NCBI GenBank assembly: GCA_023665475.1
Contig: JAMPEB010000003.1
Location: 62,001-126,000 of the forward strand
Direction of reading: 5' to 3'
From: Lachnoclostridium sp.
Lineage (GTDB): Bacteria > Bacillota > Clostridia > Lachnospirales > Lachnospiraceae
Length of the DNA stretch: 64,000 nucleotides
Shown: piece after piece, positions 2,037-42,019 of the stretch
How the letters are laid out: each line of letters opens with the position of its first letter
How positions within the stretch are numbered: the first letter of the stretch is position 1
Position numbers and translations under genes: made by a program
Notes under the pieces: model-generated
The model's database searches: none
The model's input: the letters and a program-made list of their open reading frames with translations, nothing else
What the model was told of the DNA's origin: nothing

Positions 2037-2064
2037 ATTGTATACAAATATTATGATATACAAT
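2037..2064 (-). promoter_or_regulatory. Inverted repeat in the livK leader, candidate operator
   Basis: ATTGTATA (2037-2044) and TATACAAT (2057-2064) form an 8-base inverted repeat with 12 bases between. The left arm sits inside a perfect 10-base palindrome TTGTATACAA (2038-2047), a shape common for GntR-type operators. It lies 20 bases upstream of the livK start and downstream of a weak promoter-like TTACAA/TATATC pair. No regulator is visible nearby. Confidence 0.35.
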
Positions 2065-2123
2065 TATTACTTATGCATTGTAATCACTCTTGCAGGATTT
2101 GTCAATATTTTTATGAAAAGTTT

Positions 2124-2468
2124 TTAGGCATCCGCTTTCTCTACCCGGCTGATAGCTGTTTTTTCCATAGGAATACGGCAGTTTTTGTTATTTCCGAACT
2201 CCACGATAACCGTGTTGTCTTCGTCGGAAATGTCTATCACAATGCCATAAAATCCGGAGGTGGTAAGTACGCAGTCGCCGGGAGCCAAATCCGCCAGCAT
2301 GGTATTGAGCCTCTTCTGCTCCTTTTTCTGAGGCCTGATCATAAGAAAATACATGATTGCAATCCACGCCGCAAACATGACAAACACGCTGACAAGACTG
2401 CCCGTTGCCTGTCCGGCTGCCGCCGCATCCGCCACCGTAGCTTCAGCTTCCGATAACAAAATTCCCAT
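2124..2468 (-). CDS. yajC: Sec translocase accessory subunit YajC
   Basis: A 114-residue small membrane protein of the YajC family, which associates with SecDF-YidC in the cytoplasmic membrane. One transmembrane helix (about residues 25-45) ends in the family hallmark FLMIRPQKKEQKR, followed by the cytoplasmic LAPGDCVLTTSGFYGIV segment. The longer in-frame start at 2519 adds 17 residues not expected for the family; the ATG at 2468 has AGGAAAAAT in front and is preferred. It follows tgt on the same strand, a classic tgt-yajC order, with a promoter of its own between them. No secD/secF is next to it. Confidence 0.93.
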   Translation of the reverse strand: MGILLSEAEATVADAAAAGQATGSLVSVFVMFAAWIAIMYFLMIRPQKKEQKRLNTMLADLAPGDCVLTTSGFYGIVIDISDEDNTVIVEFGNNKNCRIPMEKTAISRVEKADA

Positions 2469-2596
2469 ATTTTTCCTCGTTTCTGCGCAGCAACTGGTTG
2501 TTTGATTATCCATACACATACCGTTCCATCTGTGAATGCCGCGCTGTCACAGATTTACGCATACGGCTGTACAAGTGTATGGTTATACAAGTAAGT

Positions 2597-2625
2597 ATGA
2601 TACACAATTTTTTTCATACGCACAA
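2597..2625 (-). promoter_or_regulatory. Candidate promoter of yajC
   Basis: Minus-strand TTGTGC (2620-2625), a 17-base spacer and TATCAT (2597-2602). It lies between the tgt stop and the yajC start, leaving a leader of about 120 bases. Confidence 0.5.
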
Positions 2626-2662
2626 GCTTTTTATAAAAATTTAATATAAGCTGCCGATAAAA

Positions 2663-3808
2663 TTATCCATTTCCGCTTTCCGTCATTCCTTCCAGCTTTT
2701 CCTTCTTATAGGCGGCAAATCTGCCCTCGTCCAGCGCATCCCGTATTTCCTTCATCATGGTATTGTAAAAATACAGATTGTGAAGCACGCAAAGCCTCAT
2801 TCCCAGCATCTCCTTCGCTTTCAGCAAGTGGCGGATATATGCCTTTGAGTATCTTTGACATGCCGGACACATACAGCCTTCCTCAATAGGGCTGTCATCC
2901 AGTTCATATTTTGCATTAAACAGATTCACCCTGCCATGATTGGTATATAGATGACCATGCCTGCCGTTTCGGGAAGGATATACACAGTCAAAAAAATCAA
3001 TGCCCCGCTCCACGCCCTCTAAAATATTTGCAGGCGTACCCACGCCCATCAGATAGGTGGGTTTTTCCAAAGGAAGGAATGGCACCACTTCCTCCAAAAC
3101 ATGATACATCTCCTCATGGCTCTCTCCTACCGCAAGTCCGCCCACCGCATAGCCGTCCAAATCAAATTCACTGATTCGCTTGGCATGTTCGATACGGATA
3201 TCATCATATACCGCCCCTTGATTAATGCCAAAAAGAAGCTGATTCGGATTTACCGTATCTTCCAGCGCATTCAGGCGATTCATTTCGTCTTTGCATCTTT
3301 TCAGCCATCTGGTAGTGCGCTCTGTGGAAGCCTGCACATATTTTTTATCCGCCTTGCTGGGAGCGCATTCGTCAAAAGCCATTGCAATGGTGGAGCCTAA
3401 ATTGGACTGTATCTGCATGCTTTCTTCCGGACCCATAAATATCTTATGCCCGTCAATATGGGAGTTGAAATACACTCCCTCTTCTTTGATTTTACGAAGC
3501 TTTGCCAAAGAAAATACCTGGAATCCACCGGAATCCGTAAGGATTGGTTTATCCCAGGACATAAATTTATGGAGCCCTCCCAATTGTTTAATCACCCTGT
3601 CGCCGGGGCGCACATGCAGATGGTAAGTGTTGGACAACTCCACCTGTGTCCCTATCTGCTCTAAATCGGCGGAGGACACCGCTCCCTTAATCGCTGCAAC
3701 AGTGCCCACATTCATAAAGACAGGGGTTTGTATCGTGCCATGAACCGTGTGCATCTCGCCTCTCTTGGCTCTTCCCTCCTGCTTTAAGATATGATATATG
3801 GAACTCAT
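2663..3808 (-). CDS. tgt: tRNA-guanine transglycosylase (queuosine biosynthesis)
   Basis: A 381-residue bacterial Tgt, which exchanges guanine-34 of GU(N) anticodon tRNAs for preQ1. Visible are the TDSGGFQVFSL active-site stretch near residue 94, the FDCVYPSRNGRHG segment with the second catalytic Asp, and the C-terminal zinc site (C-x-C-x2-C, then His about 25 residues on, in LCVLHN). Length is normal. The ATG lies one base after the stop of the upstream carboxypeptidase gene, with GGGAGG overlapping that gene's last codons, so the two genes are translationally close. No preQ1 synthesis genes are in the window. Confidence 0.96.
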   Translation of the reverse strand: MSSIYHILKQEGRAKRGEMHTVHGTIQTPVFMNVGTVAAIKGAVSSADLEQIGTQVELSNTYHLHVRPGDRVIKQLGGLHKFMSWDKPILTDSGGFQVFSLAKLRKIKEEGVYFNSHIDGHKIFMGPEESMQIQSNLGSTIAMAFDECAPSKADKKYVQASTERTTRWLKRCKDEMNRLNALEDTVNPNQLLFGINQGAVYDDIRIEHAKRISEFDLDGYAVGGLAVGESHEEMYHVLEEVVPFLPLEKPTYLMGVGTPANILEGVERGIDFFDCVYPSRNGRHGHLYTNHGRVNLFNAKYELDDSPIEEGCMCPACQRYSKAYIRHLLKAKEMLGMRLCVLHNLYFYNTMMKEIRDALDEGRFAAYKKEKLEGMTESGNG

Positions 3809-27689: not shown

Positions 27690-29444
27690 TCACGCATCTT
27701 TGTTCTCATCACAATTCATATCCCTTGCAATGGCTTCCGCCACCCGTATGCCGTCCATTGCCGCGGAGGTGATGCCCCCTGCATAACCCGCACCCTCCCC
27801 GCAGGGGTACAGCCCTGCAATATCGGATTGAAGGTTTTCGTTGCGATTTATGCGCACCGGAGAAGATGTCCTGCTCTCCACTCCGAGAAGCACCGCATCG
27901 GGGCGGTTAAAGCCCGCTATCTGTCTTCCAAAGGCTTCCATTCCCTCCACAAACGCCTGATTGCACTCCTTCGGAAGAATAGGGGTTAAATCCGCCCATG
28001 TAAAATCTCCCTTGCACTGCGGCTGCAGGAAAGCTTCTCCTTCTGCTGCATGGCTGTCCCATTCCTTGTTATCCGAATTATGAGATGCCTTTTCGGGTGA
28101 AGCTGCATCCGGATTTTCGCCCAAAATCTCAGCAGGGCGTGCCTGCCCTTCCGCACAACGCTTAAAATCCCCGTACCTCTGGGCGGGAATCCTGCCTCCG
28201 CCCAGCTCATACGCCTTTTTTTCCAATTTTCTCTGAAAAGCAATGCCGGCCAGAGGATGCTCCGAACCGTAATCTTTCGGCGTAACCGACACGATAATGG
28301 CACTGTTGGCATTTTTTCCGTCCCTGCTGCTGTAACTCATGCCGTTTACCGCCAGATATCCCTCTTCCGAAGAAGCGTTCACCACATATCCGCCGGGGCA
28401 CATACAGAAAGAATACACTCCCCTGCCCGTGCTTGTTTTGGCGGTTACCTTATAAGCGGCCGCTCCCAAGTCTCCGGCTTCCTCCCTGCCGTACTGACTG
28501 AAATTAATCATACTCTGGGGATGTTCCACACGAAAGCCCACCGCAAAAGCCTTTGCCTCCATGGGTATCTTTTTGTCATGCAGCATGAAAAAAGTGTCCC
28601 TTGCACTGTGCCCGATTGCCAATACTAGCTGTTCACAGGGAATTTTTTCCTGCCCATTTACCATGATACTCGTTATTTTATTCTCTTCTATACAAATATC
28701 CGTCATTCGGCTTTCAAAGCGCACCGTGCCGCCCAGATGTATGATTTCTTCCCGCATTCCCTTTACGATTCCCGCAAGCACATCCGTTCCGATATGGGGT
28801 TTTGCTTCGTATAAAACAGATTCCTTTGCTCCAAACTTTACAAAAGTCTCAAGCACTGCCCTGTTTCTGCCATCCTTGTCTTTCACTAATGTGTTGAGCT
28901 TGCCGTCGGAAAAGGTTCCTGCGCCGCCCTCTCCAAACTGCACATTGGAAGAAGCATCCAACCTTCCCGTCCGCCAAAAGGTTTCCACATCCTTCATCCG
29001 CGTCTCCACATCCCTTCCCCGTTCCAAAAGGATGGGTCGGTATCCGGCAAGCGCCAGAAAATATCCGCAGAAAAGCCCCGCAGGACCCATACCTATGATC
29101 ACGGGAGGGTGGGATAATTTGCGGGCTTTGGCTTCGCATTGGGGAAAGGCATATTTTACAGGCTCCACCTTTTCCACCTGTAAATTCTGCCTACGCCGTA
29201 AATTTCCCTGATTCTTACCGCCATTTCCTTTAAGCTCCTGCAGGACCTTATCTTCCTTTTTTATCCGCACATCCAAGGTATAACAAAAAAACAGCTCCGG
29301 CTTTTTTCTGGCATCCAAAGACCTGCGCAGAATATCCATGCCGATAATATCCGTCTCCGGAATATGTAAAGCCTTTGCCGCCTTTTTTTGAAGCTGCTCC
29401 TCTGTATGGTCCGTCCGTATTTTTAACTGATGAATCCGCAGCAT
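27690..29444 (-). CDS. FAD-dependent oxidoreductase of the COG2509 type
   Basis: A 584-residue flavoprotein with the uncharacterised FAD-dependent dehydrogenase layout: an N-terminal about 90-residue ferredoxin-like domain (LRIHQLKIRTDHTEEQLQKKAAKAL), then a Rossmann FAD site IGMGPAGLFCGYFLALAG with ERG, and the C-terminal GEGAGYAGGITSAAMDGIRVAEAIA. The frame extends to 29654, but those extra residues overlap the preceding gene and are not family-like; the ATG at 29444 has AGAGG before it. An Asp/Ser-rich insertion near residue 455 is unusual. It is likely co-transcribed with the BaiN-like gene 28 bases upstream. Substrate unknown. Confidence 0.85.
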   Translation of the reverse strand: MLRIHQLKIRTDHTEEQLQKKAAKALHIPETDIIGMDILRRSLDARKKPELFFCYTLDVRIKKEDKVLQELKGNGGKNQGNLRRRQNLQVEKVEPVKYAFPQCEAKARKLSHPPVIIGMGPAGLFCGYFLALAGYRPILLERGRDVETRMKDVETFWRTGRLDASSNVQFGEGGAGTFSDGKLNTLVKDKDGRNRAVLETFVKFGAKESVLYEAKPHIGTDVLAGIVKGMREEIIHLGGTVRFESRMTDICIEENKITSIMVNGQEKIPCEQLVLAIGHSARDTFFMLHDKKIPMEAKAFAVGFRVEHPQSMINFSQYGREEAGDLGAAAYKVTAKTSTGRGVYSFCMCPGGYVVNASSEEGYLAVNGMSYSSRDGKNANSAIIVSVTPKDYGSEHPLAGIAFQRKLEKKAYELGGGRIPAQRYGDFKRCAEGQARPAEILGENPDAASPEKASHNSDNKEWDSHAAEGEAFLQPQCKGDFTWADLTPILPKECNQAFVEGMEAFGRQIAGFNRPDAVLLGVESRTSSPVRINRNENLQSDIAGLYPCGEGAGYAGGITSAAMDGIRVAEAIARDMNCDENKDA

Positions 29445-29472
29445 AACGCTTTCCTCTCTGTTTTTATATCCT

Positions 29473-30693
29473 CTACTCCGCCGCTGCCCTGCCTGCCAGA
29501 TACCCGCTGCACCATGCCCACTGCAAATTATATCCGCCGCATTTTCCGTCGACATCCAGCACTTCTCCGGCAAAATACACCCCCGGAATCTTTCTGGATT
29601 CCAGTTTTTCCGTAACTTCGCCGGTGGGAACGCCCCCCGCGCAGACCTGTGCATTTTCGTAAGGATTACTTGACACTACTGTCACTTTCCAATCTTTGCA
29701 TAGGGAAAATACCTTCCAAATCTTATCTTTTGCGGCTTCCTTCACGGGCGTCCCCGCTTTCAGCCCCGCAAGTCTTACAAAAAGCAGCATGATTTTTTTA
29801 TGCAGCATTCCCGTAAAAAATTCTTCCACGGTTTTGTCCCCTGCCAAAAGAATCCTTGTTTCGTATAAGCGTTTTAAGTCCTCCCCTGTATAATCCGGCA
29901 ATAAATCAATATGTACCGTCACTTCCTTTTGCCGCATCAGATGTCTGCCCGCAATACGGCTCAACTGAAAGATGGGAATACCGGAAATACCGTAATCCGT
30001 AAGCTGAAGCTCCCCTCTTTCCTTTACGGGTTCTCCGCTTTCCTGCTCTAATGTGATATTGGCGTCCGCTCTCACTCCCGCTACGGATTTGAAATAATCC
30101 TCCTTACAACGAAGCGCTACAAGCGCCGGCACTGTAGGAATCAGGCTGTGCCCCAATTGCTCTGCCAGTAAATATCCGCTTCCGTCAGAGCCGGTATTTT
30201 TCGCGGCTTTCCCTCCGCAGGCAATGATAACTCTGTCAAAAACATACTCTTCCCTGCCGTCCGATACTAGGATTCCATTATCTTTTTGAGCGATCCTGCA
30301 AATCTTACACTCCGTTTTAACCGTTATGCCCAGTTCTTTTATCTTTATGCGAAGCACATCCAGCACTGCGGACGCCTGCTCACAGGCAGGATAGAGATAA
30401 TTGTTTTTACTTTTTATCATAAGCCCGAGTTCCCGAAAAAAAGAAACTGTATCCTGCGTATTAAACCCGGCAAGCCTGTCCGCCACAAAAGCAATATCTT
30501 CTCCAAAATAACAGTCTGCGGACAGTTCCAGATTTCCCAGATTACATCTGCCGTTTCCCGTGGCAAGCAGCTTTTTGCCCATGCGGTCATTTCCTTCTAA
30601 AATCGTTACATTAGCGCCCTGCCCGGCTGCCGTGACTGCCGCCGCCATGCCGGACGCCCCTCCTCCGATAATACCTATCTTTCTCTGTCCCAT
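29473..30693 (-). CDS. NAD(P)/FAD-dependent oxidoreductase, BaiN/HI0933 family
   Basis: A 406-residue flavoprotein. The FAD dinucleotide fold IGIIGGGASGMAAAVTAAGQG with LEG is at the N-terminus, followed by the family motif GKKLLATGNGRCNLGN, and the C-terminus ends GVYFAGEVLDVDGKCGGYNLQWAWCSGYLAG, diagnostic for the HI0933/YhiN/BaiN family. A member in Clostridium scindens (BaiN) acts in bile-acid dehydroxylation, but most members have no known substrate and no bai genes are present here. It is upstream of the COG2509 gene in the same orientation. Confidence 0.88.
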   Translation of the reverse strand: MGQRKIGIIGGGASGMAAAVTAAGQGANVTILEGNDRMGKKLLATGNGRCNLGNLELSADCYFGEDIAFVADRLAGFNTQDTVSFFRELGLMIKSKNNYLYPACEQASAVLDVLRIKIKELGITVKTECKICRIAQKDNGILVSDGREEYVFDRVIIACGGKAAKNTGSDGSGYLLAEQLGHSLIPTVPALVALRCKEDYFKSVAGVRADANITLEQESGEPVKERGELQLTDYGISGIPIFQLSRIAGRHLMRQKEVTVHIDLLPDYTGEDLKRLYETRILLAGDKTVEEFFTGMLHKKIMLLFVRLAGLKAGTPVKEAAKDKIWKVFSLCKDWKVTVVSSNPYENAQVCAGGVPTGEVTEKLESRKIPGVYFAGEVLDVDGKCGGYNLQWAWCSGYLAGRAAAE

Positions 30694-30720
30694 ACAGCCT
30701 CTCGCTTTCTCACATCTCCA

Positions 30721-31521
30721 CTATGAAGTATATGCCTCCAAAAGATTATACAAACTTGCCTCGTCTTCCACAAATAACATCTGGATTACCTGTCTTTGTA
30801 CTTCTTCCGGCAGCTCCTCCAGCAAAATCCCCGTATTGATATAGACCGTTTCTTTGTCCTCCAGATAAACCACCAGCTCATTATTCTGCACTGCCAGATA
30901 GAAGCTGCTCCCCGGCTGCAGATAACGATAATTCATCTGTATTACGACTCTCTCTCTGGAAAAGGACAAAACCTCAAGCCCTATAAATCCCCGCTCCTTC
31001 TCGCTCAAAGGCGGATAAGCCGCATAGGATTCCATTGCGCTCAAAAACTGTTGTCTGTCCATTCCTATATATTTGGGAGGCAGTTTCCCCACGGTTTCCA
31101 CGATGGCATGGGTAATGGTATCCGTCTCCTCCAATACATACTTTGTGTCTACGGAAAGCTTTTCCGAGAGCGCTGCCGCTTCAAAAACTTCTCCGGAACC
31201 CTCCGCCAAATCACCGGAAGACACCGTACCGGATACCACATTCCTATCTGCATACGGAATATATTCCGTCGGAAAATCTTCCGGCGGAAATTGTTCCGGC
31301 GGAAATTGTTCCGTTTTATCCGAATCGGTTTTTACCGGACTGTCATCTATGACTTTTGCAAGCTCCTGCATAGATATGGGTGAATTTTCCTTCCCTTCCA
31401 TCCGCCCATAGCTTTCTCCCGGATAAAAGAAACGATCTGCCTCTATCCCCGCAACAAACCCGGTTCCCAGCATAAGAAGCGGAAATATAACATACAAACT
31501 GATACCTTTGACAAATTTCAT
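30721..31521 (-). CDS. Membrane-anchored protein with BofC-like C-terminal domain
   Basis: A 266-residue protein with one N-terminal transmembrane helix (about 9-26). A linker near residues 69-85 holds a short repeat (EQFPPEQFPPEDFPTE). The last 110 residues have a pattern I associate with BofC-type C-terminal domains: FYLAVQNNELVVYLEDKETVYINTGI, LPEEVQ and ending LYNLLEAYTS. BofC controls SpoIVB proteolysis in Bacillus sporulation, but the relation here is only by domain resemblance. It lies between a flavoprotein gene and a flippase-like gene, all on the minus strand. Confidence 0.6.
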   Translation of the reverse strand: MKFVKGISLYVIFPLLMLGTGFVAGIEADRFFYPGESYGRMEGKENSPISMQELAKVIDDSPVKTDSDKTEQFPPEQFPPEDFPTEYIPYADRNVVSGTVSSGDLAEGSGEVFEAAALSEKLSVDTKYVLEETDTITHAIVETVGKLPPKYIGMDRQQFLSAMESYAAYPPLSEKERGFIGLEVLSFSRERVVIQMNYRYLQPGSSFYLAVQNNELVVYLEDKETVYINTGILLEELPEEVQRQVIQMLFVEDEASLYNLLEAYTS

Positions 31522-31593
31522 AAGCCCTCACATAACATGCTCTTTTTACTTGCTATCAGTATCAGCTTTTTTTCAAAATTTATACAATTCCTG

Positions 31594-33210
31594 TCAGTAT
31601 ATCTGCAAAATCTTTCCAAATGATTTGATTAAATTTCCGCCGGGAATCATTTTTAACTCCTGTTCCCTGAAATTACGCAGGAAAATCAACAGTATCCAAT
31701 ATAATAAATAAGATAATGCGAAACAAATAAGGATTGCGGTTATATTGCCCAGATGGGGGGTCAGCGCTTTACCCAAAAACATGCTGATCAGCCCGCAAAC
31801 GCATGCCCCACCTGCCGGCAACACAAAAGTCTGAATCCAGTCAATCCCCATACCAAGCTGCTTACAGGCAAAGAATCCCAAAACCGCACAAAGAGCTGCC
31901 GAAGCAATCAGTCCCGCATACACTAAAGAAAGCGCTCCCATATTTCCGCCGTTTAAGAAAAGTACCATAGAAATAATAAAAAGGACATTCATAATGCCAA
32001 GACCCGCCACCACCAGATGCTGACTCTTTCCAAGGATTAAAAGTCTGGCAAAATAATTCGCAACGATCAGAAAACATACCGTAAACGCTCCGTTTCCTAT
32101 CATTGTTGCCAGATTCTGCGTTGCTTCGCCCACAGTACTTCCGCTCAAAAAACCGGCCAATTGACTGCTCACCGCCATCAAAAACGCTCCAAAATACAGT
32201 CCCTGCACCGCTGCCAGATGCAGACCTCCCTGAAAACCTGTCTTTGCATAATTCCATTCATCCCGTTTCAGACAGACATATACTTTTGATGCCGCCGATA
32301 TGAGAAGAATATCCGTAAAAAGCACAACAACCGCTCCCGCTGCCAGATATTTCCCATAATATTCCCCATAAGAGGAAATAACTGTCAAATCCGCAGCCGC
32401 TTTCTTTTGCAGGAATATGATTCCCAGCCATATGGGAAGCCTTGCAAAAATCTGTACCAAAATGCCCCACAACATATTTCCGTACAAAATGCTTACCAGC
32501 CTGCCAAAAGAATCCGTGATTCTCATTCCCTCCGCAGTATCGTTTTTTGCCTTCCGGCGGCTTATGCGGCAGGCAATCATAAGAAACAGCCCTGTCAAAA
32601 GTTCCGCAATTCCTATGGCAACGGCAACGCCCATAGCGGCATACATGGCGGCAAAATCCTCCTGTCCCAAGAGGGCGCTGACCTTGACCCCATGACTTTT
32701 TAGCAGATTTCCAAACAGAAATCCCAGACTTACAAATAAAATCTGTCTGAGCAGACAGGCTCCCGCAGCCGGAAGCTCATCCCCCTCGCCCTGCAGATAT
32801 CCCTGCAGCACGGCGCTCACCATCCGCAGAAAAAACGCCGGAACCAACACCGCCGGCAAAAAAGATGCCCGTGGCATAAAAAACAGTTTTCTTATCACAA
32901 AATTTCCCAATAATGCCAAAAAAACGCTTCCCACAATCCCGAGAAAGACTTGAAACAACATCACATATCTGCGCACCCTTGCCGCATTCCGATACTGCCC
33001 TTTCGCGCTGCGTCCTTTGAGCATCCTGCCCAGCGCATCCGCCACATTGCTTCCCAAAAGAATAAAGAAAAGGGAATAACACTCATAGCCCGCTGCCAGA
33101 TAAGCAATACCGCTGTTTCCCAACAGCTTGCCCAAAAGCAGAATGCCAATGCATCCTATTATGTATGAAAAACTTTTTATCTGCCGTTTTTTCACTTCTA
33201 CCTGATTCAT
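31594..33210 (-). CDS. MOP-superfamily flippase (SpoVB/MurJ-like)
   Basis: A 538-residue polytopic membrane protein with about 14 hydrophobic segments. It resembles the oligosaccharidyl-lipid flippases of the MVF/SpoVB branch, with features such as a basic cytoplasmic loop (GRMLKGRSAKGQYRNAARVRRY) and the LQGYLQGEG segment. The substrate could be lipid II or another lipid-linked sugar. It is 17 bases downstream of ybeY, at the end of the sporulation-linked block, which favours a cell-wall or spore role. Assignment to the exact subfamily is uncertain. Confidence 0.72.
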   Translation of the reverse strand: MNQVEVKKRQIKSFSYIIGCIGILLLGKLLGNSGIAYLAAGYECYSLFFILLGSNVADALGRMLKGRSAKGQYRNAARVRRYVMLFQVFLGIVGSVFLALLGNFVIRKLFFMPRASFLPAVLVPAFFLRMVSAVLQGYLQGEGDELPAAGACLLRQILFVSLGFLFGNLLKSHGVKVSALLGQEDFAAMYAAMGVAVAIGIAELLTGLFLMIACRISRRKAKNDTAEGMRITDSFGRLVSILYGNMLWGILVQIFARLPIWLGIIFLQKKAAADLTVISSYGEYYGKYLAAGAVVVLFTDILLISAASKVYVCLKRDEWNYAKTGFQGGLHLAAVQGLYFGAFLMAVSSQLAGFLSGSTVGEATQNLATMIGNGAFTVCFLIVANYFARLLILGKSQHLVVAGLGIMNVLFIISMVLFLNGGNMGALSLVYAGLIASAALCAVLGFFACKQLGMGIDWIQTFVLPAGGACVCGLISMFLGKALTPHLGNITAILICFALSYLLYWILLIFLRNFREQELKMIPGGNLIKSFGKILQIY

Positions 33211-33227
33211 CTGTACTTATCCCTTCG

Positions 33228-33728
33228 TTAATCTCTTGTAATCCCAAGCTGTGTCAGCACAGCTTCCTGTTTTTCTTCCATTACTTTGGCTTCTTCATCC
33301 GTCATATGGTCATATCCGCACAGATGAAACATACTATGGGCAATCAAAAACGCCAATTCCCTTCTCAGGCTGTGTCCAAAATCCGCGGCCTGCTCCTTTA
33401 CCTTGTCCACCGATAAAACAATATCCCCCAAAATCAATTCCCCCGTATCCGGGTCAAAACAGCCCGCTTCCTTCTCCTGAGGGATAGAAAAATCAGACAC
33501 TCTCTCAAAATCAAGATTGGGAAAAGAAAGCACATCCGTCTCTTTGTCAATCCCCCTGTATTCCTTGTTAAAACCCCGGATTCCTTCGTTATCTGTAAGA
33601 AGCACATTTATCTGGGTTTCATAAGGACAATTCTCGCCTAACAGCACTGCAAGCGCTACTTCTTCCACCGTATCCTCCACGGAAAAAGGAAACTTTGTAT
33701 CCGTATCGTTCTCAACGCAGAAAGTCAT
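33228..33728 (-). CDS. ybeY: Endoribonuclease YbeY (rRNA maturation)
   Basis: A 166-residue zinc-dependent endoribonuclease involved in 16S rRNA 3'-end maturation and ribosome quality control. The H3 metal motif HSMFHLCGYDHM is at about residues 131-142, and NVLLTDNEGIRGFNKEYRGIDKETDVLSFP is the usual central segment. It overlaps the upstream HD-like gene by 17 bases, in the conserved phoH-HD-ybeY order. Confidence 0.95.
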   Translation of the reverse strand: MTFCVENDTDTKFPFSVEDTVEEVALAVLLGENCPYETQINVLLTDNEGIRGFNKEYRGIDKETDVLSFPNLDFERVSDFSIPQEKEAGCFDPDTGELILGDIVLSVDKVKEQAADFGHSLRRELAFLIAHSMFHLCGYDHMTDEEAKVMEEKQEAVLTQLGITRD

Positions 33729-34899
33729 AATAGAGCTTTTCCTCCTTGTATATGTTTTGCAGTATCCACAGCTCTCTTAAGGTAATATCGCAGTCATCAA
33801 ACATTCCCCTATCATGAAAATCCCGAAAAAGGGAATCTATGATTTCATCATAATCCGGTTTTCCTCCTCCCGTAGCCAGAGGATACACCGTCTCTATTAC
33901 AACATTGGAGCAGTAAATCACGGCTATTTCCTTATGCCTTAAGGGGGTCTTGCTTACATCCCGCACATAAGTAAAATATTCCGTCAGAAGCTCCTTTGCC
34001 CGGGGCGGAAACTCCTTTTCCTCCATAATCGTCAGGATTTCTTCTCCCAGAACATGATAATAGCTCGCACATTTTACCGCATTCACATCCAGGGAAAGTC
34101 TGGCGGCAAGCCGCTCACAAAAATAGGTTATATGGATTGCTTTCATGTAAGTTGCTTTATCCGATTCCCGCAATTCCACCAAAATGGGATTTTCCGTGTC
34201 ATTCAATTCCAGATATTTCTCACGGAACCAATAAACTACCTGAGAGGAAAATAATTTCAAAATGCCGGTCAAAAGCACGGCAGAAATAATCATATTTACC
34301 GCGGGGACCACAAACATTTCCAGCTTCGGTCTGGCGTTTGCCATTAAAATAATATTTGCCGTCTCGCACAAAAGCAGGCACAGTATGGAAAGAATCAACG
34401 GCGGTACAACCTTGACATCCGCTTCCAACGGACATAACAGACATACCGCAAACATCCCGCTGAGCAGATACAGAAAGTAAATATCTATGGATGCTCCGCT
34501 AAGCATTGCCGGTATCATCAAAAGCACGGCGGAAGCCGTTATTCCCACTGTCGGGGTGCTGTAAAGGGAGAGCATGACAAAGACTGCCAGAAAAGGCCAC
34601 CCTTCCTTTGGCAGAAATACACAGGCAAACGCCAATACCAGAGAAATCAGCATTCCCAGCCAGAATCTGTCAATATGCACCCTGTTTAAGTAAGGAATAT
34701 CTTCCCTTACAGATTCCCTGCGGACCCTGAATCCGATGACCGCCGTTCCCAACACTGCCATCACTATAAATTTCAGGGTATGCTCCGGTGCCGTCTGTCT
34801 GAAAAAACATATTATGCCGATTCCTGCCGCGGCAAGAAGCCCAAAAAGCAGCTCCGGCAGCAATAGTTTACTAAAAAACTTTATTTTATCCTTTGCCAT
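33712..34899 (-). CDS. PgpH-like 7TM-HD protein, shortened and with a degenerate HD motif
   Basis: A 395-residue membrane protein in the place normally held by the c-di-AMP phosphodiesterase PgpH. About eight hydrophobic segments (residues 10-225) are followed by an HD-type domain. The catalytic pair is altered: AIHITYFCERLAARL keeps the first His, but YYHVLG has Val where PgpH has Asp (YHDIGK). Downstream HD-domain ligands are also not evident, and the extracellular 7TMR-HDED domain is missing (PgpH is usually about 700 residues). It is probably not an active phosphodiesterase. The ATG at 34899 has GGAG before it and overlaps phoH by 14 bases; the frame reaches to 34944. Confidence 0.78.
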   Translation of the reverse strand: MAKDKIKFFSKLLLPELLFGLLAAAGIGIICFFRQTAPEHTLKFIVMAVLGTAVIGFRVRRESVREDIPYLNRVHIDRFWLGMLISLVLAFACVFLPKEGWPFLAVFVMLSLYSTPTVGITASAVLLMIPAMLSGASIDIYFLYLLSGMFAVCLLCPLEADVKVVPPLILSILCLLLCETANIILMANARPKLEMFVVPAVNMIISAVLLTGILKLFSSQVVYWFREKYLELNDTENPILVELRESDKATYMKAIHITYFCERLAARLSLDVNAVKCASYYHVLGEEILTIMEEKEFPPRAKELLTEYFTYVRDVSKTPLRHKEIAVIYCSNVVIETVYPLATGGGKPDYDEIIDSLFRDFHDRGMFDDCDITLRELWILQNIYKEEKLYYDFLR

Positions 34900-35878
34900 G
34901 TCCGCTCCGTTTTCGATTCCTTTCCTTTGCCTCATAATCATCATAGGCTTTTACTATTTTCTGTACCAGCGGATGGCGTACCACATCCTTGCTGGATAAA
35001 CTGCAAAACGCTATATCATCTATCTTTGCAAGCACTTTCATCGCCATGTCAAGACCCGAATATGCTCCGGCGGGCAAATCCTTCTGGGATGCGTCCCCTG
35101 TCACCACAACCTTGGAACCGAAACCTATTCTGGTCAGAAACATTTTCATCTGCGCCGGCGTGGTATTCTGCGCCTCATCCAGAATAATATAGGCATTATC
35201 CAGAGTGCGCCCCCTCATATAGGCTAAAGGAGCTACCTCAATCAATCCCTTTTCCATATTTTTGGCAAAACTCTCCGCTCCCATAATCTGATACAGCGCA
35301 TCATACAGCGGTCTCAAATAAGGGTCCACCTTACTCTGCAGATCCCCCGGCAAAAATCCCAGCTTTTCTCCCGCCTCAATGGCAGGGCGGGTCAATATAA
35401 TGCGCTCTACCTCCTCGTTTTTGAAAGCGGTAATCGCCATTGCCATGGCAAGATAGGTCTTGCCGGTTCCCGCAGGACCGACGCCGAATACAATCATTTT
35501 TTTGCGGATAGCATCCACATACATTTTCTGTCCCAAAGTTTTGGGCTTGATGGGCTTGCCGTGAATCGTATGACAGATACAATCCTCATCAATTTTGGTA
35601 ATGACATCTTCCTGTGCTTCCATACCCATTGTAATAGCGTAATCCACGCTCTGCTCCTCTATCTCATTTCCCCGTCCGGAAATTACATTCAACTGTTTCA
35701 GCACATTGCCTGCCTTTTTGGCGTTTTCCGCTTCTCCCAAAACATAGACGGCGTCGTTTCTGTTCACCACCGCCACCCCAAATTCCTTCTCCAGCTTCTT
35801 TAGGTAAGCATCCTGCATTCCGAAAATCTTCTGCATATGCTCTGCAGACATATCAATCCTGACGGAAATTTCACTCAT
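34886..35878 (-). CDS. phoH: PhoH-family ATPase
   Basis: A 330-residue cytoplasmic P-loop protein. A KH-like N-terminal domain of about 110 residues is followed by Walker A GPAGTGKTYLA and Walker B YIILDEAQNTTPAQMKMFLTR, with GSKVVVTGD. The frame extends to 35908, but the ATG at 35878 (MSEISVRID) fits the family and overlaps the yqfD stop by eight bases. The yqfC-yqfD-phoH-HD-ybeY order is conserved in Firmicutes. Its role is not fully established; related proteins have helicase or RNase activity. Confidence 0.93.
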   Translation of the reverse strand: MSEISVRIDMSAEHMQKIFGMQDAYLKKLEKEFGVAVVNRNDAVYVLGEAENAKKAGNVLKQLNVISGRGNEIEEQSVDYAITMGMEAQEDVITKIDEDCICHTIHGKPIKPKTLGQKMYVDAIRKKMIVFGVGPAGTGKTYLAMAMAITAFKNEEVERIILTRPAIEAGEKLGFLPGDLQSKVDPYLRPLYDALYQIMGAESFAKNMEKGLIEVAPLAYMRGRTLDNAYIILDEAQNTTPAQMKMFLTRIGFGSKVVVTGDASQKDLPAGAYSGLDMAMKVLAKIDDIAFCSLSSKDVVRHPLVQKIVKAYDDYEAKERNRKRSGHGKG

Positions 35879-37100
35879 TGCGCTGCATCTCTCCCATATC
35901 CTGTGCATTTTGGCTGATATCTACACTTTTTCCTGTCTGTTCATGAATCAGCAGACTGCCGGAAATTGTCCACATACTACCACTAGTATCTATTTTAACA
36001 TCTTTTTCAATAATTTGTACCCCCTTTTCCTCTAAAGTTGCAATAAATGCCATTAATTTTTCATTAAGCAGCGTTTCTGCCTCCTGCGGCGAGTATACAA
36101 ACTCTACATTTTGATATTCCCGATAGGTGTAACTGCCAAAATAGACAGGAACGGAAAACATATCAAACAAAAAGGGACGGCTCTTTTTCATTACGCTGTC
36201 ATACACCAGATAAGGTCTTTCCGCGGGTATTTTCAACTCCCTTTCCCCGAAGTGAAGGAAATGCCGGCTTTTTGTCCTTCCCGTATACGCCTTTTCAATA
36301 TGTATATACGGAAGTTCCGCGTAAAAGTCTTCCGTTCGTTCAATCACAATATCCGCATCGGAATGCACATATTGATACTCCCTTACGGTGGCGTCGTCAT
36401 TATAAACGGGAACACTTCCCTCCACCAATACCGCTCCCGCTTCCACCGTATCGCCTGCCGCCACCTTGGGCACCCCGTTTCTCACTATGATGGACACAAT
36501 CACCCCTCCGCATTCCGCTACAAGGTCGCTTCCTCCCTCCTTTTTTTCTATTGAGGGCACAATGGGGGCGTCGTTTTCCTTAAGCTGTATCTGCAGTTTC
36601 GTGCCGGAAAGCTTGGCAGAGGTCCATGTGACCTGCGTAAAGGTTCTGCGGATTTCCTTTTCCAAAGTCCCGATATCAAGGCGGCTGATACGCATTCCTA
36701 CATGCACGCCCTCCGCCTCCAGAAAATCCGAAAAAACATCTTCCGTAATCTGATAATTCCCCTCAATCTCAATATCCCAGATATAAAAGGAAGTCCAAAA
36801 CCAGAATCCCACAGCCAGAACGAGCCCCATCACAAAAATTTTCCGTTTCCACAGACCGGGTATAAAGAAGGGTAGCCCATATCTCTGTAATATGACTACC
36901 CTTGTTCCTGTTTTTTTCACGATGGGACGAAGCTTGTAAAAGCTTCTTAAGCCGATGTTCATGTAATAAACATCCCCATCCCGCTTAATCTCCCAAAGAA
37001 GGATATCTTTGTTGCCGCACAGATTCATAAAACGCTCTGCCGAAAATCCCCACACCTTAATGCGCAGATATCCCCTCAGATACCTGAAAATCGCTATCAT
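35871..37100 (-). CDS. yqfD: Sporulation protein YqfD
   Basis: A 409-residue YqfD-family protein needed for sporulation in Bacillus, where it is made in the mother cell. The N-terminal cytoplasmic part (about 90 residues) is followed by one transmembrane helix (FVMGLVLAVGFWFWTSFYIW) and an extracytoplasmic region with POTRA-like and YqfD repeats (GVHVGMRISRLDIGTLEKEI, GVIVSIIVRNGVPKVAAGDTV). The ATG at 37100 has GGAGG six bases before it and is preferred over 37115. It lies 46 bases after yqfC. Confidence 0.92.
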   Translation of the reverse strand: MIAIFRYLRGYLRIKVWGFSAERFMNLCGNKDILLWEIKRDGDVYYMNIGLRSFYKLRPIVKKTGTRVVILQRYGLPFFIPGLWKRKIFVMGLVLAVGFWFWTSFYIWDIEIEGNYQITEDVFSDFLEAEGVHVGMRISRLDIGTLEKEIRRTFTQVTWTSAKLSGTKLQIQLKENDAPIVPSIEKKEGGSDLVAECGGVIVSIIVRNGVPKVAAGDTVEAGAVLVEGSVPVYNDDATVREYQYVHSDADIVIERTEDFYAELPYIHIEKAYTGRTKSRHFLHFGERELKIPAERPYLVYDSVMKKSRPFLFDMFSVPVYFGSYTYREYQNVEFVYSPQEAETLLNEKLMAFIATLEEKGVQIIEKDVKIDTSGSMWTISGSLLIHEQTGKSVDISQNAQDMGEMQRNE

Positions 37101-37146
37101 GCCATACCTCCGCATAACTTAAGTTCTATCAAAGCATTCAGCCTGC

Positions 37147-37425
37147 CTACAGATAGCGGACGCATTGAATACAGCCCTTAATCTTCATATCCTCATTTGT
37201 GTAATAGTCGATGCAGAGCCTGTTTCCTTCAAAACACACCTGACAGCTTTTTGTCTGAAGCAGAATCATCTGTTCCGTATATTCCAAAATTCCTTTATAG
37301 TTTTCTATCCAGGCTTCCCCATTGCCTGTAAGCGTGACTCTGACGGCTCCTGTGCAGATATCCCTCGGCAGTTGCAGGGAATCTATCAAGAACTCCTTTT
37401 TGGGGATATGATTTTTCTTTTTCAT
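37147..37425 (-). CDS. yqfC: Sporulation protein YqfC (YabP family)
   Basis: A 92-residue YabP/YqfC-family protein of sporulation. The family pattern is LQLPRDI, VRVTLTGNGEAWIENYKGIL and a C-terminal beta-rich half. It is first in the yqfC-yqfD-phoH operon. The region just upstream has a sigma-E-like promoter whose predicted start site falls at or near the ATG, so the transcript may be leaderless; no ribosome site is seen before the ATG. Confidence 0.88.
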   Translation of the reverse strand: MKKKNHIPKKEFLIDSLQLPRDICTGAVRVTLTGNGEAWIENYKGILEYTEQMILLQTKSCQVCFEGNRLCIDYYTNEDMKIKGCIQCVRYL

Positions 37426-37429
37426 GATA

Positions 37430-37460
37430 ACAGTATATTATCATGGGCAGCAATATATGA
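37430..37460 (-). promoter_or_regulatory. Candidate sigma-E promoter of the yqfC operon
   Basis: Minus-strand TCATATATT (37452-37460) fits the Bacillus sigma-E -35 consensus KCATATNTT exactly, and TATACTGT (37430-37437) shares the ATAC core of the -10 consensus CATACAMT, 14 bases away. An inverted repeat CATGATAA-N7-TTATCATG (37423-37445) overlaps the -10 and the start codon. Confidence 0.5.
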
Positions 37461-37486
37461 GAAATCCGACCCGTATAATTTTTCAT

Positions 37487-38791
37487 TCAATCGACAATCC
37501 CCTTAATCAAGGCTGCCTTTATGGGCGCTTCGCCGGAGAAAGCGTATGCTTTGAGAAAACGCTCTTTTGCAGCCTGCGCCTTCCCTTCGTCATTGGCATA
37601 AAGATAAGCCAGTGGCTCCCCTGCTTTCACATAGTCCCCGGTTTTCTTCTTCAGGACAAGCCCCACGGACAAATCGATCCGGCTGTCCTTAGTCTCCCTA
37701 CCCCCGCCTAACATAAGGGAACAAATGCCGATTTCTCCGCATTCTATATGGCTCACATAGCCATCCACGGGCGAGGGGACCGGAATTTCAAGTTCTGCCT
37801 TGGGCAAAAGTCCCGTATCATAGACAGCTTTCTCGTCTCCTCCCTGCGCTTTTACAAGCTCCGCAAGTTTATGAAGAGCGCTTCCGTCCGAAATCACCTT
37901 TTGTAATCTTTCCTTTGCAGCGGCTTCCTCCGTTTCCAAGCCCCCCGCAATCAGCATCCGGCTGCCGAGGGTCAGGCATAGTTCCCGAAAATCTTCAGGA
38001 CCTCTGCCCTGCAGGGTCTCTATGGCCTCCTTTACCTCAAGGGCATTTCCCACGGCATACCCCAAAGGCTGGTCCATGTCGGAGACAACGGCTGTCGTCC
38101 GCCTTCCTGCATTTTTTCCGATTTGCACCATCTCTTTTGCCAGAGCAAAGGCGTCCGCCTCCTCCTTCATAAACGCCCCGCTTCCCGTCTTTACATCCAA
38201 TACAATGGCGTCCGCTCCCGCCGCCAGCTTCTTGCTCATAATGGAGCTTGCAATCAAAGACATATTGTCCACGGTTGCGGTTACATCCCTGAGGGCATAC
38301 AGCTTTTTGTCGGCAGGCGCTAAATCTGCGGTCTGCCCCATCAGGGCAATGCCGATTCGGTTCACATTGGAGATAAACTGCTCCCCGGTAAGCGCCGTGG
38401 AAAATCCCGGAAAACTCTCTAATTTATCAATGGTGCCTCCGGTATGTCCAAGCCCCCTGCCGCTCATCTTCGCAACGGGAATCCCGCACACTGCCACCAT
38501 GGGAGTCAGCGCCAGAGAGGTTTTATCCCCCACGCCTCCCGTGCTGTGCTTATCCACCTTGATTCCCTTAATTGCGGACAAATCCAACATTTCTCCGCTT
38601 TCGGCCATCGCCATGGTAAGAAAAAGGGTCTCGTCTGCCGTCATCTTCCGAAAATAAACCGCCATCATCAGAGCAGACGCCTGATAATCGGGAATCTCGC
38701 CCTTTGTATAACCCTGCACGAAAAAGTCAATTTCCTCTTTTGACAATTCGCCGCCGTTTCTCTTTTTCATGATGATGTCATACATTCTCAT
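37487..38791 (-). CDS. pdp: Pyrimidine-nucleoside phosphorylase
   Basis: A 434-residue enzyme that splits uridine, thymidine or deoxyuridine with phosphate in nucleoside salvage. The family signature is SGRGLGHTGGTIDKLESFPG near residue 110, with KVDKHSTGGVGDKTSLALTP before it and a C-terminal biotin-lipoyl-like pyrimidine phosphorylase domain (DYVKAGEPLAYLYAN). The ATG at 38791 has GGAG before it and gives the usual length; the frame extends to 38854. No other nucleoside catabolic genes are next to it. Confidence 0.94.
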   Translation of the reverse strand: MRMYDIIMKKRNGGELSKEEIDFFVQGYTKGEIPDYQASALMMAVYFRKMTADETLFLTMAMAESGEMLDLSAIKGIKVDKHSTGGVGDKTSLALTPMVAVCGIPVAKMSGRGLGHTGGTIDKLESFPGFSTALTGEQFISNVNRIGIALMGQTADLAPADKKLYALRDVTATVDNMSLIASSIMSKKLAAGADAIVLDVKTGSGAFMKEEADAFALAKEMVQIGKNAGRRTTAVVSDMDQPLGYAVGNALEVKEAIETLQGRGPEDFRELCLTLGSRMLIAGGLETEEAAAKERLQKVISDGSALHKLAELVKAQGGDEKAVYDTGLLPKAELEIPVPSPVDGYVSHIECGEIGICSLMLGGGRETKDSRIDLSVGLVLKKKTGDYVKAGEPLAYLYANDEGKAQAAKERFLKAYAFSGEAPIKAALIKGIVD

Positions 38792-38922
38792 AATAAATTC
38801 TCCGTTCTTATACCCCCGCATACAACGGGAACTGCTTTGCAACCCTGTTGTCATGTATCATTGGCTTCTGCCTGCGATACTTCTGCCAATACCGCAACCC
38901 GAAAATTTCATGCATGCACAAA

Positions 38923-40690
38923 TTATAACACTCCCAACTGCAGTTCCTTCAGTTCTTCTTTCACTGCAAGATGCTTTCCGATCAAATGATAGAATAACAA
39001 TATCATAAAGATTGCACCGATTGCCAGATAGCGTACAAAACGGTTTTTGTGTTTCGCCCGTTTTACTATCCATGAAATCACTCTATTTTTCTGTTCTTCC
39101 GTCATACCCAGACTGATGGGTGCTTTCTCAACAAATAAATCCAACAGATAGGTAAATCCGGCTATCATTCCCATAGTTGCCCAAGGGACGGCGTTTTGGG
39201 AAACTCCCGTCTTGGGCTCGGAAGCTTTCGGCGTCACAATCTGGCTGTGTACAAATACCTCGTCATCATCGTCCTCCACTTTTGGAGGTTCCTCCTTAGG
39301 AGGCTCTACTTTGGGCGGCTCTTCCTTTGGAGGTTCTACTTTGGGAGGCTCCTCCTTGGGCGGTTCCGCCTTGGGCAGCGTATAGCCGATGGCATAAGTG
39401 GAGAACTTCATGGCATGAATCAAAACGCTGTCTTCCGAAAATTCTATGTATTCCCCGTTTTCATTAGGCGTTTCGGTAAGCTGCTCCGCTTCGCCTTTCT
39501 GTCTTGCTTTATTCTCATGGTAACGGTAAACTGCAAGATTCTCCTTGTCGGCGTTTTCAAAAGGCACAATGACGGGAAGCAGCTTTGTATTTTCATCGCC
39601 GATATCTGCCGCAGGGTCATTATTTACCTGCCTTGTAAGCTTAAAATCCAGATATTCCAGAATCCTGTCCTGAGAAATACGCTTAATCTGCTCCGCTCCG
39701 TCTGCCGTCTGTTCGGTTCTCTCATCCACGGTAAACACCACATTTACCGTGTCCTCTTCCGCTCCCGAGGCGTCCGCTATATTATCCAGTTCGCCTACAA
39801 GGACTGTTCTGGCGCTTCCCACCAGAACTACCCTTGAATTCTTCTCTCCCATGGGAAGGACGATATCCTTGTCCGTTATGTCTTCCGTAAGCTCCACCAG
39901 CGATGTTATGGTAAGCTCCGTCCCATCCTTTTTTCTGGCATTCACTACCAGATTGTATTCGTCCGCCGGAGCGGACGCCCGGTAATGGTAAGGAGAACTG
40001 TTTCCCGTAACATCGGCGGGATATTCCCTGCCTTTCATGCCGTCAATACCCACCAATTTCGCCGTAACGGATTCATAGATATCTTCTCCGATAATGTCTC
40101 CTTCAATAACTACTTCTTCCTCCGGAATCAATCTGGTTCCCGGCCTTATCCGGGTATCCTTACATCCTCTGACACAGGTAGCGGTCTCCGTTCCGTCATG
40201 TTCATAGGTGGCGTCGTTATTGTACACATAGTCCCCAAACTCATGACCGAGAGCGGGAGAATAGGCTGCCTCCTGTCCGTTACAAATACTGCAGCGTTTG
40301 ATAACATGCCCCTCCTCTATACAGGTAGGCTCTTTCTCCTCAACAATCTCATATTCGTGAGTGTGGTCATTTATTTGAATCTTCCCCGTCTCGTCCACCT
40401 CAATCCATTTTTCCACCGCCTCGGACACGGCGCCTTTGGAGTTGGTGATCCAAAGCAGGATTTTATGCCTTGTATTGGGGTTAAGATCCGGCAGATGGAT
40501 GACTCCCCTGACGGTCTGGTCTTCCCCCGTTGCCACCGAATCCAGAAGTTTGTTTTCCGAACCGTCGTCCACGGTATAATAAATGGAATCAATGACTCCC
40601 GCCTGATCCTTAATATTTGCTTCCACATTGACGGTATGTCTGTCCGGAAGCTCCGCATCCAGTGACAGCCTGATGGTCGGGGTTTCTTCG
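38923..40690 (-). CDS. 3' part of a large cell-surface protein (out of frame with the 5' part by one base)
   Basis: The frame is open from the G-run (40694-40701) to 38923 and would continue the protein encoded upstream if that run were one G shorter. Downstream of the run come an EETPTIRLSLDAELPD segment, an Ig-like stretch, a Cys/His motif region (HTHEYEIVEEKEPTCIEEGH, then C-x2-C sites), further beta-rich domains and a Pro-rich cell-wall-spanning repeat of KEEPPKVEPP units (about 39285-39370). The C-terminus has two hydrophobic segments, around 39130-39180 and 38985-39030. On its own this part has only a GTG at 40626 and no signal peptide, so it needs the upstream half to be exported. Confidence 0.7.
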
Positions 40691-42019
40691 TCACCCCCCC
40701 CATTTCGGCGGCTCCGCCGCCTCTCCTACGCCTACGATAATGGAGTAGGTTTTGGATTCGCCGGGTTCCAGCTCTATACCTTGCCAGCTCACGGCAAGAG
40801 CACTGTCATTCTCACCAAAAGATTCTATATCAGCTTGATCATAACACATCGTATCTTCATTAGGAAACCATCCAAACCAATAAGTGCTGACATCCGTCAC
40901 CCCATTGGTGCCCCTGAAATACAGATTGTACTGTGCACCTTTACCCTGAACAGCTGTATCGCTATGTGAATTCACCATAGAAAGCCCTATGACCCGGCTT
41001 CCTGAACTATCTTTTATAACTTTAATAGTAGCCTTATCGTCCCATCCAATCATAACATCCGCAAAAACCGCTAATTTTCCATCCGTAACAATGCTGCTAC
41101 CCGCCGTTATTGTATAACTTAATTTCACATACCGCCCACTATTTACAAAACTTGCATTGCGTGTCACCACGGCATCTGTCGGCATTGTATGTTTAATCCG
41201 ATATCCTTTAAACCCGAATGTCGTTGCAATCCACTGTCCATTATAGTTTCCTACGACATCAATATCCATCGGAAGCTCGCCATCAGCTACCTGTTTCTTG
41301 TTTGTTGTATTGAGATATTTATACGCCATAATCTGATCCGCATTGGTGGTATATGTGGCATTATTGACACTCACTTCCACCGGCTCCAGTCCCCCGCAGG
41401 ACGCATTATGTACATGGCGGCAGGGTAATGCCGTCACCTCAGCCACATACCCGCATTCGTCGTCATGCTCCGTATGGGGCACAAACCCACAGGGATGTCC
41501 CTCTACCGCTTCCCTGTAACCGCATTCGTCATTATGTGCCGTATGATTCTCATATTCGCAGGGATGCCCCTCTATCGCTTCCCTGTATTCACAATCTTCG
41601 GCATGGGTGATTTCCGCATTTCCGTCCGTTACATCCGAAGCGGCTCCGCATGTGCACTCCTGCCCTGCCTCCGCCTCTATGTAACCGCAGCTTCCATCAT
41701 GGTCATGTACGGCAACCGCGTCTCCTCCGGAAATTGAAATCGTCACGCCCCATTTACAAGGCTGTGCTTCCACGGCTTTCTTGTATCCACAGCTTTCATC
41801 ATGCTCATGTCCCGTATCTCCTCCGGAAACCGTCAGACCACCCTTGCTACAGGGTTGTCCTGCCACGGCCTCCCTGTAGCCGCAATTTTCATCATGCACA
41901 TGGTTACAGCCCGTCCCTGCCGCAAGCACGGTGAAATCCATACTGCTTGCCAACAGACAGATACTTAAGGCAACCGCAAGCGCTCTTTGACGAAACAATC
42001 TCTTTTTCCTTTTTTTCAT
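40691..42019 (-). CDS. 5' part of the large His/Cys-repeat surface protein
   Basis: A 442-codon frame from the ATG at 42019 (AGGGA before it) that ends at a TGA immediately after a run of eight G. A signal peptide (residues 1-33, KKRKKRLFRQRALAVALSIC and so on) is followed by about 6.5 repeats of the form H-x-HD-x2-CGY-x-EA-x2-G-x-PC (residues 40-210), a potential metal-binding array, then a beta-rich segment. Joined to the downstream frame with one G fewer, the protein would be 1,031 residues. As it stands the product would be truncated and lack an anchor. The frame up to 42100 is possible but unlikely. Confidence 0.75.
   Translation of the reverse strand: MKKRKKRLFRQRALAVALSICLLASSMDFTVLAAGTGCNHVHDENCGYREAVAGQPCSKGGLTVSGGDTGHEHDESCGYKKAVEAQPCKWGVTISISGGDAVAVHDHDGSCGYIEAEAGQECTCGAASDVTDGNAEITHAEDCEYREAIEGHPCEYENHTAHNDECGYREAVEGHPCGFVPHTEHDDECGYVAEVTALPCRHVHNASCGGLEPVEVSVNNATYTTNADQIMAYKYLNTTNKKQVADGELPMDIDVVGNYNGQWIATTFGFKGYRIKHTMPTDAVVTRNASFVNSGRYVKLSYTITAGSSIVTDGKLAVFADVMIGWDDKATIKVIKDSSGSRVIGLSMVNSHSDTAVQGKGAQYNLYFRGTNGVTDVSTYWFGWFPNEDTMCYDQADIESFGENDSALAVSWQGIELEPGESKTYSIIVGVGEAAEPPKWGG
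40694..40701 (-). repeat. Run of eight G inside a surface-protein gene (candidate phase-variation tract)
   Basis: Eight G on the minus strand (8 C on the plus strand) lie at the exact point where the upstream frame ends and the downstream frame begins. Removing one G joins them: (42019 to 38923 is 3,097 bases; 3,096 is divisible by three). Confidence 0.85.

Follow-up and report, generated by a model that had tools for sequence, protein, structure and literature searches.

A gene of a Lachnospiraceae bacterium that appears to encode a surface protein is interrupted at a run of eight G, and the question raised by this locus is what the interruption represents: a site at which the gene is switched by slippage of the run, a gene that has recently been lost, an error in the assembly, or a place where the break is overcome by recoding. 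The locus was analysed within a window of 64,000 nucleotides, i.e., the whole stretch of DNA under study, and was compared with the copy of the gene in a sister species, with other G tracts of the same genome, and with genomes of the same genus.

A gene divided at a run of eight G

Positions 40694-40701 of the window carry C8 on the plus strand, that is G8 on the coding (minus) strand, and a TGA follows directly at 40693-40691. The 5' frame runs from an ATG at 42019 to the tract through 442 codons, and past the tract the 3' frame stays open until a stop at 38923; the registers of the two frames differ, and the change of frame sits at the G8 tract itself, about 43% along the gene, i.e., mid-gene. 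The sequence-only reading had already described eight G followed by TGA, with the 3' frame in a shifted register, and its coordinates and codon arithmetic are correct; to that description we add a beta-type domain located in the 5' part, between the His/Cys repeats and the tract. The features of the split gene, with domain limits set by eye, are the following:

40691..42019, minus strand: 5' frame read from the sequence, 442 aa, with signal peptide, His/Cys repeats and beta-type domain, terminated by TGA
41918..42019, minus strand: signal peptide region, approximate, predicted by eye from the hydrophobic pattern
41390..41914, minus strand: His/Cys repeats, about six or seven, of the HxHDxxCGYxEAVxGxPC type, dN/dS 0.45 against the sister species
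40745..41377, minus strand: mosaic beta-type domain of about 225 residues
40707..40721, minus strand: G+C stem, perfect over 6 bp with a 3-nt loop, 5 nt upstream of the tract and present in the sister species too
40694..40701, minus strand: eight-G run, the frame-change point
38923..40695, minus strand: 3' frame, with beta domain, Cys repeat, stalk domains, Pro/Glu/Lys spacer and anchor
38959..39231, minus strand: C-terminal anchor, with a PKTG-like motif and membrane segments, common to many surface proteins of the genus

Judged from this predicted layout, the gene product is a surface protein of mosaic make-up that is secreted and anchored; as a member of the Lachnospiraceae, the bacterium is probably a gut inhabitant. 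The signal-peptide frame and the frame carrying the PKTG-like anchor motif are separated by the G tract. In Pfam no domain scored above the cut-off in either half of the gene, and in Pfam and NCBIfam no curated domain scored above the cut-off in the intact relative of the sister species, in which no LPXTG model was matched either. The sole PDB sequence match (E 0.003) is to the Pro-rich spacer, and the predicted structure of the whole intact sister-species protein has a mean pLDDT of 34.2, which is too low for a fold search. Relatives of the 3' half are present in 27 of the 138 genus genomes, the bacterium's own included, nearly all of them matched in just the anchor or the Cys repeat; this Cys repeat recurs in many proteins of the genus. 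For the 5' half no relative was found among 60 other genomes searched, a set to which the sister-species genome (G109) does not belong. Next to the gene lie those for a pyrimidine nucleoside phosphorylase and for a LysM/GH18 protein; the remaining scanned neighbours are an HhH-GPD endonuclease-type protein, YqfD, AzlC, AzlD and two unmatched proteins, and neither a pilin cluster nor an adjoining sortase was found among the scanned neighbours in the window.

The sister species carries the gene unbroken, with 1,086 codons in a single open frame (1,040 aa counted from the Met), and the gene is identical in G109 and L002. Its tract is one G shorter than G8, so that the check on the tract in relatives, as proposed in the sequence-only reading, gave a difference of one G together with an open gene; this contrast of open and broken states is one comparison, between the bacterium's own genome and G109. 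The earlier view that the two halves belong to one gene is borne out by the single open frame of the sister species and by purifying selection on the 3' half, which is strong (dS 0.165, dN 0.020, ratio 0.12 against the sister species). The marks of pseudogene decay were absent from this half, i.e., relative to the sister species there are no further stops, frameshifts or other lesions and no relaxed selection. Since the 3' half has a dN/dS of 0.12 and lacks a second lesion, the break is recent. The same follows from the alignment with G109, which covers window positions 27727-28032, 28143-38809 and 38911-40807, outside a divergent block: in these approximately 13 kb the tract is the sole uncompensated coding indel, which also argues that the assembly is not generally poor. 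The remaining indels are multiples of three, sum to such a multiple (29162-29194), or are compensated within about 20 bases; the one at 37123 is intergenic, and the one at 28029 is a single base bordering an unaligned block, and the difference in length of this block brings it to a multiple of three.

Another aspect of the gene is the divergence of the domain that precedes the tract. Against the sister species, the nucleotide identity of this mosaic domain is 53-82% per 20-codon step (one step, of three aligned codons, is lower), compared with 87-100% in the preceding His/Cys repeats and 98% in the step adjoining the tract; likewise, dS is about 1.05 in the domain versus about 0.17 in the rest of the gene. 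On these values the domain looks like the product of an exchange of domain allele rather than of point divergence. Relatives of the mosaic domain were found in 6 of the 138 genomes, the bacterium's own and G109 included, and in the stretches examined of the four further homologues no long G run stands at that place before the next domain.

G tracts elsewhere in the genome and the genus

The genome holds 65 tracts of exactly G7, five of G8 and none of G9 or longer; the counts drop steeply with length, so there is no excess of long tracts. A Markov expectation of run lengths was given no weight because it ignores codon use. The 70 G7/G8 tracts were scanned for coding-like frames in different register on the two sides of the tract, a heuristic rule that may miss cases, and three of them were found to split a gene: two anchored-protein genes at G8-TGA, including the one described above, and one gene at a G7. 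All three are envelope-type genes, which is not a random set. As for the five G8 tracts, two lie well inside long genes, and both of these break secreted anchored proteins at G8-TGA; a third is placed near a gene end, at a distance of 16 codons, and the last two lie where no gene could be called. The two additional split genes are the following:

L035, 15807-19578 (contig C31): second split gene, secreted, with transglutaminase-like and Big_2 domains, split at G8-TGA
L148, about 2041-3620 (contig C18): third split gene, membrane glycosyltransferase-like, with the frame change at a G7

In the second gene the LPXTG-type anchor match is below the cut-off, and beyond the G8-TGA a frame in the other register runs for 582 aa. 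Its counterpart in the sister species is an open frame of 1,161 codons in which the tract-bearing repeat unit is missing; the dN/dS values of the two parts against that species are 0.38 and 0.27. In the third gene the 3' part matches PMT_2 from profile position 61, with a GtrII match below the cut-off, and the 5' part (204 codons) gave no significant profile match. This third case helps the slippage and sequencing-error explanations alike.

Secreted-type genes hold 22 of the 52 in-gene G7/G8 tracts, three of the 22 being antisense and both tracts of the second split gene being counted, against 23.4% of the sampled codons (p 0.002); with the sense tracts alone the figure is 19 of 46 (p 0.005). 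The codon background for these comparisons, 464 kb made up of 20 hand-picked, non-random stretches plus the window, contains no G7, and the rule for secreted genes is rough, with false positives such as a family 2 glycosyltransferase-like protein in L127. The excess therefore depends on the rule and is weak evidence. A separate observation is that in this genome G7 tracts recur at the signal-peptide end of large secreted proteins (L131, L142, L159, L176, L177 and L035), where they code for Gly-Gly-Val, or Gly-Gly-Ala in L035.

In the genus, the pattern GGGGGGGGTGA has 17 occurrences, spread over 14 of 138 genomes, versus approximately 37, by a hand count, for the reversed control pattern; it is therefore not in excess. 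By reading frames assigned by eye, long frames in different register flank five of the 17 places (both of those in the bacterium's own genome, L068, L080 and, less clearly, L082), six are in frame (L071, L073, L074, L075, L079 and L081), and six belong to neither class. Tracts of G9 or longer are present in 79 of the 138 genomes and absent from the bacterium's own genome and from G109. The tract loci that were read comprised one from each of 30 genomes with G9 or longer, plus 30 of the 128 places in ten chosen tract-bearing genomes; many of them are not in clear genes. Five apparently broken cases (L068, L097, L080, L185 and L204), in which tracts of 8-12 G interrupt GtrII, Acyl_transf_3, MBOAT, DNA methylase and PMT_2 genes, were scanned piecewise; having been chosen, they give no rate. 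The GtrII gene split by a G8 has its halves at profile positions 19-177 and 185-313, the second at 26.6 bits, below the cut-off of 30; the Acyl_transf_3 gene split by a G9 has its halves at 2-59 (below cut-off) and 69-316; the DNA methylase (N6_N4_Mtase) has a shifted 78-codon tail after a G12; and the PMT_2 gene (G9) and the MBOAT gene (G12) have a profile match on one side of the tract only. Single tracts of this kind may be errors, since many genomes of the genus are drafts. Contingency loci usually hold envelope and methylase genes. Genes of these two kinds are also given as typical of such loci in the literature (excerpt of PMC3711429). Viral contigs were scanned for the tract, with its length left variable, and none was found.

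Regarding mismatch repair, the G8 tract resides in a host with MutS1 and MutL: MutS1 is intact in 14 of 14 genomes and MutL in seven of seven, the bacterium's own genome being in both sets. Loss of mismatch repair as the cause of the break was rejected, given that mutS and mutL are intact.

Causes of the break

The sequence-only reading had presented the locus as a candidate for phase variation, and the analysis bears this out in part. What favours this idea is a surface gene interrupted at the tract, with an intact relative of another tract length and an undecayed 3' half. It also gains from two further genes of this genome that are split at G tracts, one coding for an anchored protein and one glycosyltransferase-like, and from split envelope genes elsewhere in the genus. 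From these data, slippage appears to be the best cause of the break, and phase variation is plausible. Slipped-strand mispairing during replication would alter the short G run by one base; at one tract length translation would proceed through to the anchor and yield the full anchored protein, and at the length found in the assembly, G8, it would stop at the tract and yield the N-terminal part without stalk and anchor. A population would then be expected to contain a mixture of lengths, and the change to be reversible. In view of the undecayed 3' half and of the further envelope genes of this genome interrupted at G tracts, we give about an even chance to the proposal that the tract is a low-rate, reversible contingency site, produced by slippage, in an anchored surface-protein gene. 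A high-rate switch is disfavoured by the short G8, its position at about 43% of the gene, the intact mutS and mutL, and the absence of G9 or longer; these same points, and the lack of a G8-TGA excess in the genus, stand against a dedicated switch. Also counting against a switch, the capsule promoters of Mediterraneibacter gnavus, a member of the Lachnospiraceae, are not bimodal (excerpt of PMC13121745).

The arguments against a dedicated switch would equally suit a plain recent loss, that is, an ordinary loss-of-function frameshift in which a dispensable gene suffers a single slip in a strain or species that is losing it, with no switch involved. The short mid-gene tract, the intact mismatch repair and the lack of a G8 excess all agree with this; moreover, dispensable envelope genes tolerate breaks, so several broken genes need no switch, and the share of broken tracts is not significantly higher in secreted-type genes than in the others (2/22 versus 1/30; the Fisher p of 0.17 is for 2/22 versus 0/30, and the contrast with 1/30 is weaker still). 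Nevertheless, there is no second lesion, the dN/dS of the 3' half is 0.12, and two anchored-protein genes are broken at the same kind of site, and on balance we regard simple loss as rather unlikely. A sequencing or assembly error, with the true gene being whole, is graded less likely and seems improbable. Homopolymers are error-prone and annotated G-tract lengths may be wrong (excerpt of PMC9187656), the genome is a draft of 48 contigs, and L148 also has a G7 at a frame change, so that G-tract errors could have hit more than once; on the other hand, no other uncompensated coding indel occurs in the approximately 13 kb aligned, and only 3 of the 70 G7/G8 tracts lie at a frame change under the heuristic rule, all of them in envelope-type genes. 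Recoding, by which the ribosome or the RNA polymerase would slip at the G run before the TGA and give both a short and a full product, accords with the stop directly after the run and with the G+C hairpin 5 nt upstream. However, such slippage is unneeded in the sister species, the RNA folding around the tract is not exceptional (z -1.84), and transcriptional slippage is usual at adenine or thymine runs (excerpt of PMC3711429); recoding is thus a very improbable explanation.

If the tract is indeed a contingency site produced by slippage, it could be asked what would be switched. In both anchored-protein genes the run of G separates the N-terminal domains (the mosaic beta domain in the first gene, the transglutaminase-like domain in the second) from the C-terminal repeats with the wall anchor. 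As translation of the short form would end only beyond these N-terminal domains, its product could be shed from the cell as a complete secreted ligand or enzyme, and the long form would keep the same domains at the wall. The generalisation that such tracts switch anchoring, not expression, in several Lachnospiraceae surface proteins is doubtful.

Most of what is known of phase variation in gut bacteria concerns DNA inversions, and a search of the open-access literature found no report of switching by G-tract slippage in Lachnospiraceae. If surface proteins, glycan enzymes and DNA methylases of this family were switched in this manner, annotation would be miscalling such genes as pseudogenes, and surveys could score their on and off states directly from reads.

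Comparison with known systems

Among clostridial wall proteins, CwpV of C. difficile resembles the protein described here in its location and is described as phase-variable in expression. CwpV is switched via an upstream DNA inversion, whereas the tract in the present gene is intragenic. To our knowledge, the genus Campylobacter lacks MutSL, in contrast with the mismatch repair present here. In Campylobacter jejuni, tracts of at least 7 G or C are treated as phase-variable, with G8 among the lengths scored (excerpt of PMC4965091), and in both organisms surface determinants are concerned; however, the C. jejuni strain has 29 poly-G loci with rates of about 1e-3 per division, versus five G8 tracts here. 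The inlA gene of Listeria offers another likeness, being a Firmicute surface-protein gene that is inactivated reversibly at a homopolymer; nevertheless, this homopolymer is a poly-A near the 5' end, and poly-A/T tracts are reported with 5' placement (excerpt of PMC2831843), whereas the present tract is a poly-G in mid-gene.

Closer to the present case are the sortase-dependent pilin genes bbr_0113 and bbr_1889 of Bifidobacterium breve UCC2003, in which G tracts part the signal-peptide and LPXTG frames and the lengths in the population were measured (excerpt of PMC9187656). As in that Gram-positive gut commensal, frames for a signal peptide and for an anchor are parted here by a G tract, and there are two such loci per genome. 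The two systems differ in that the upstream frame in B. breve is short (65 aa in bbr_1889a) and is followed by a sortase and other pilins, according to the same excerpt, whereas the present gene is broken mid-gene, its scanned neighbours are non-pilus genes, and slippage is the proposed cause. Even with these differences, the pilins of B. breve are the nearest precedent, and by analogy the split gene may work like that system.
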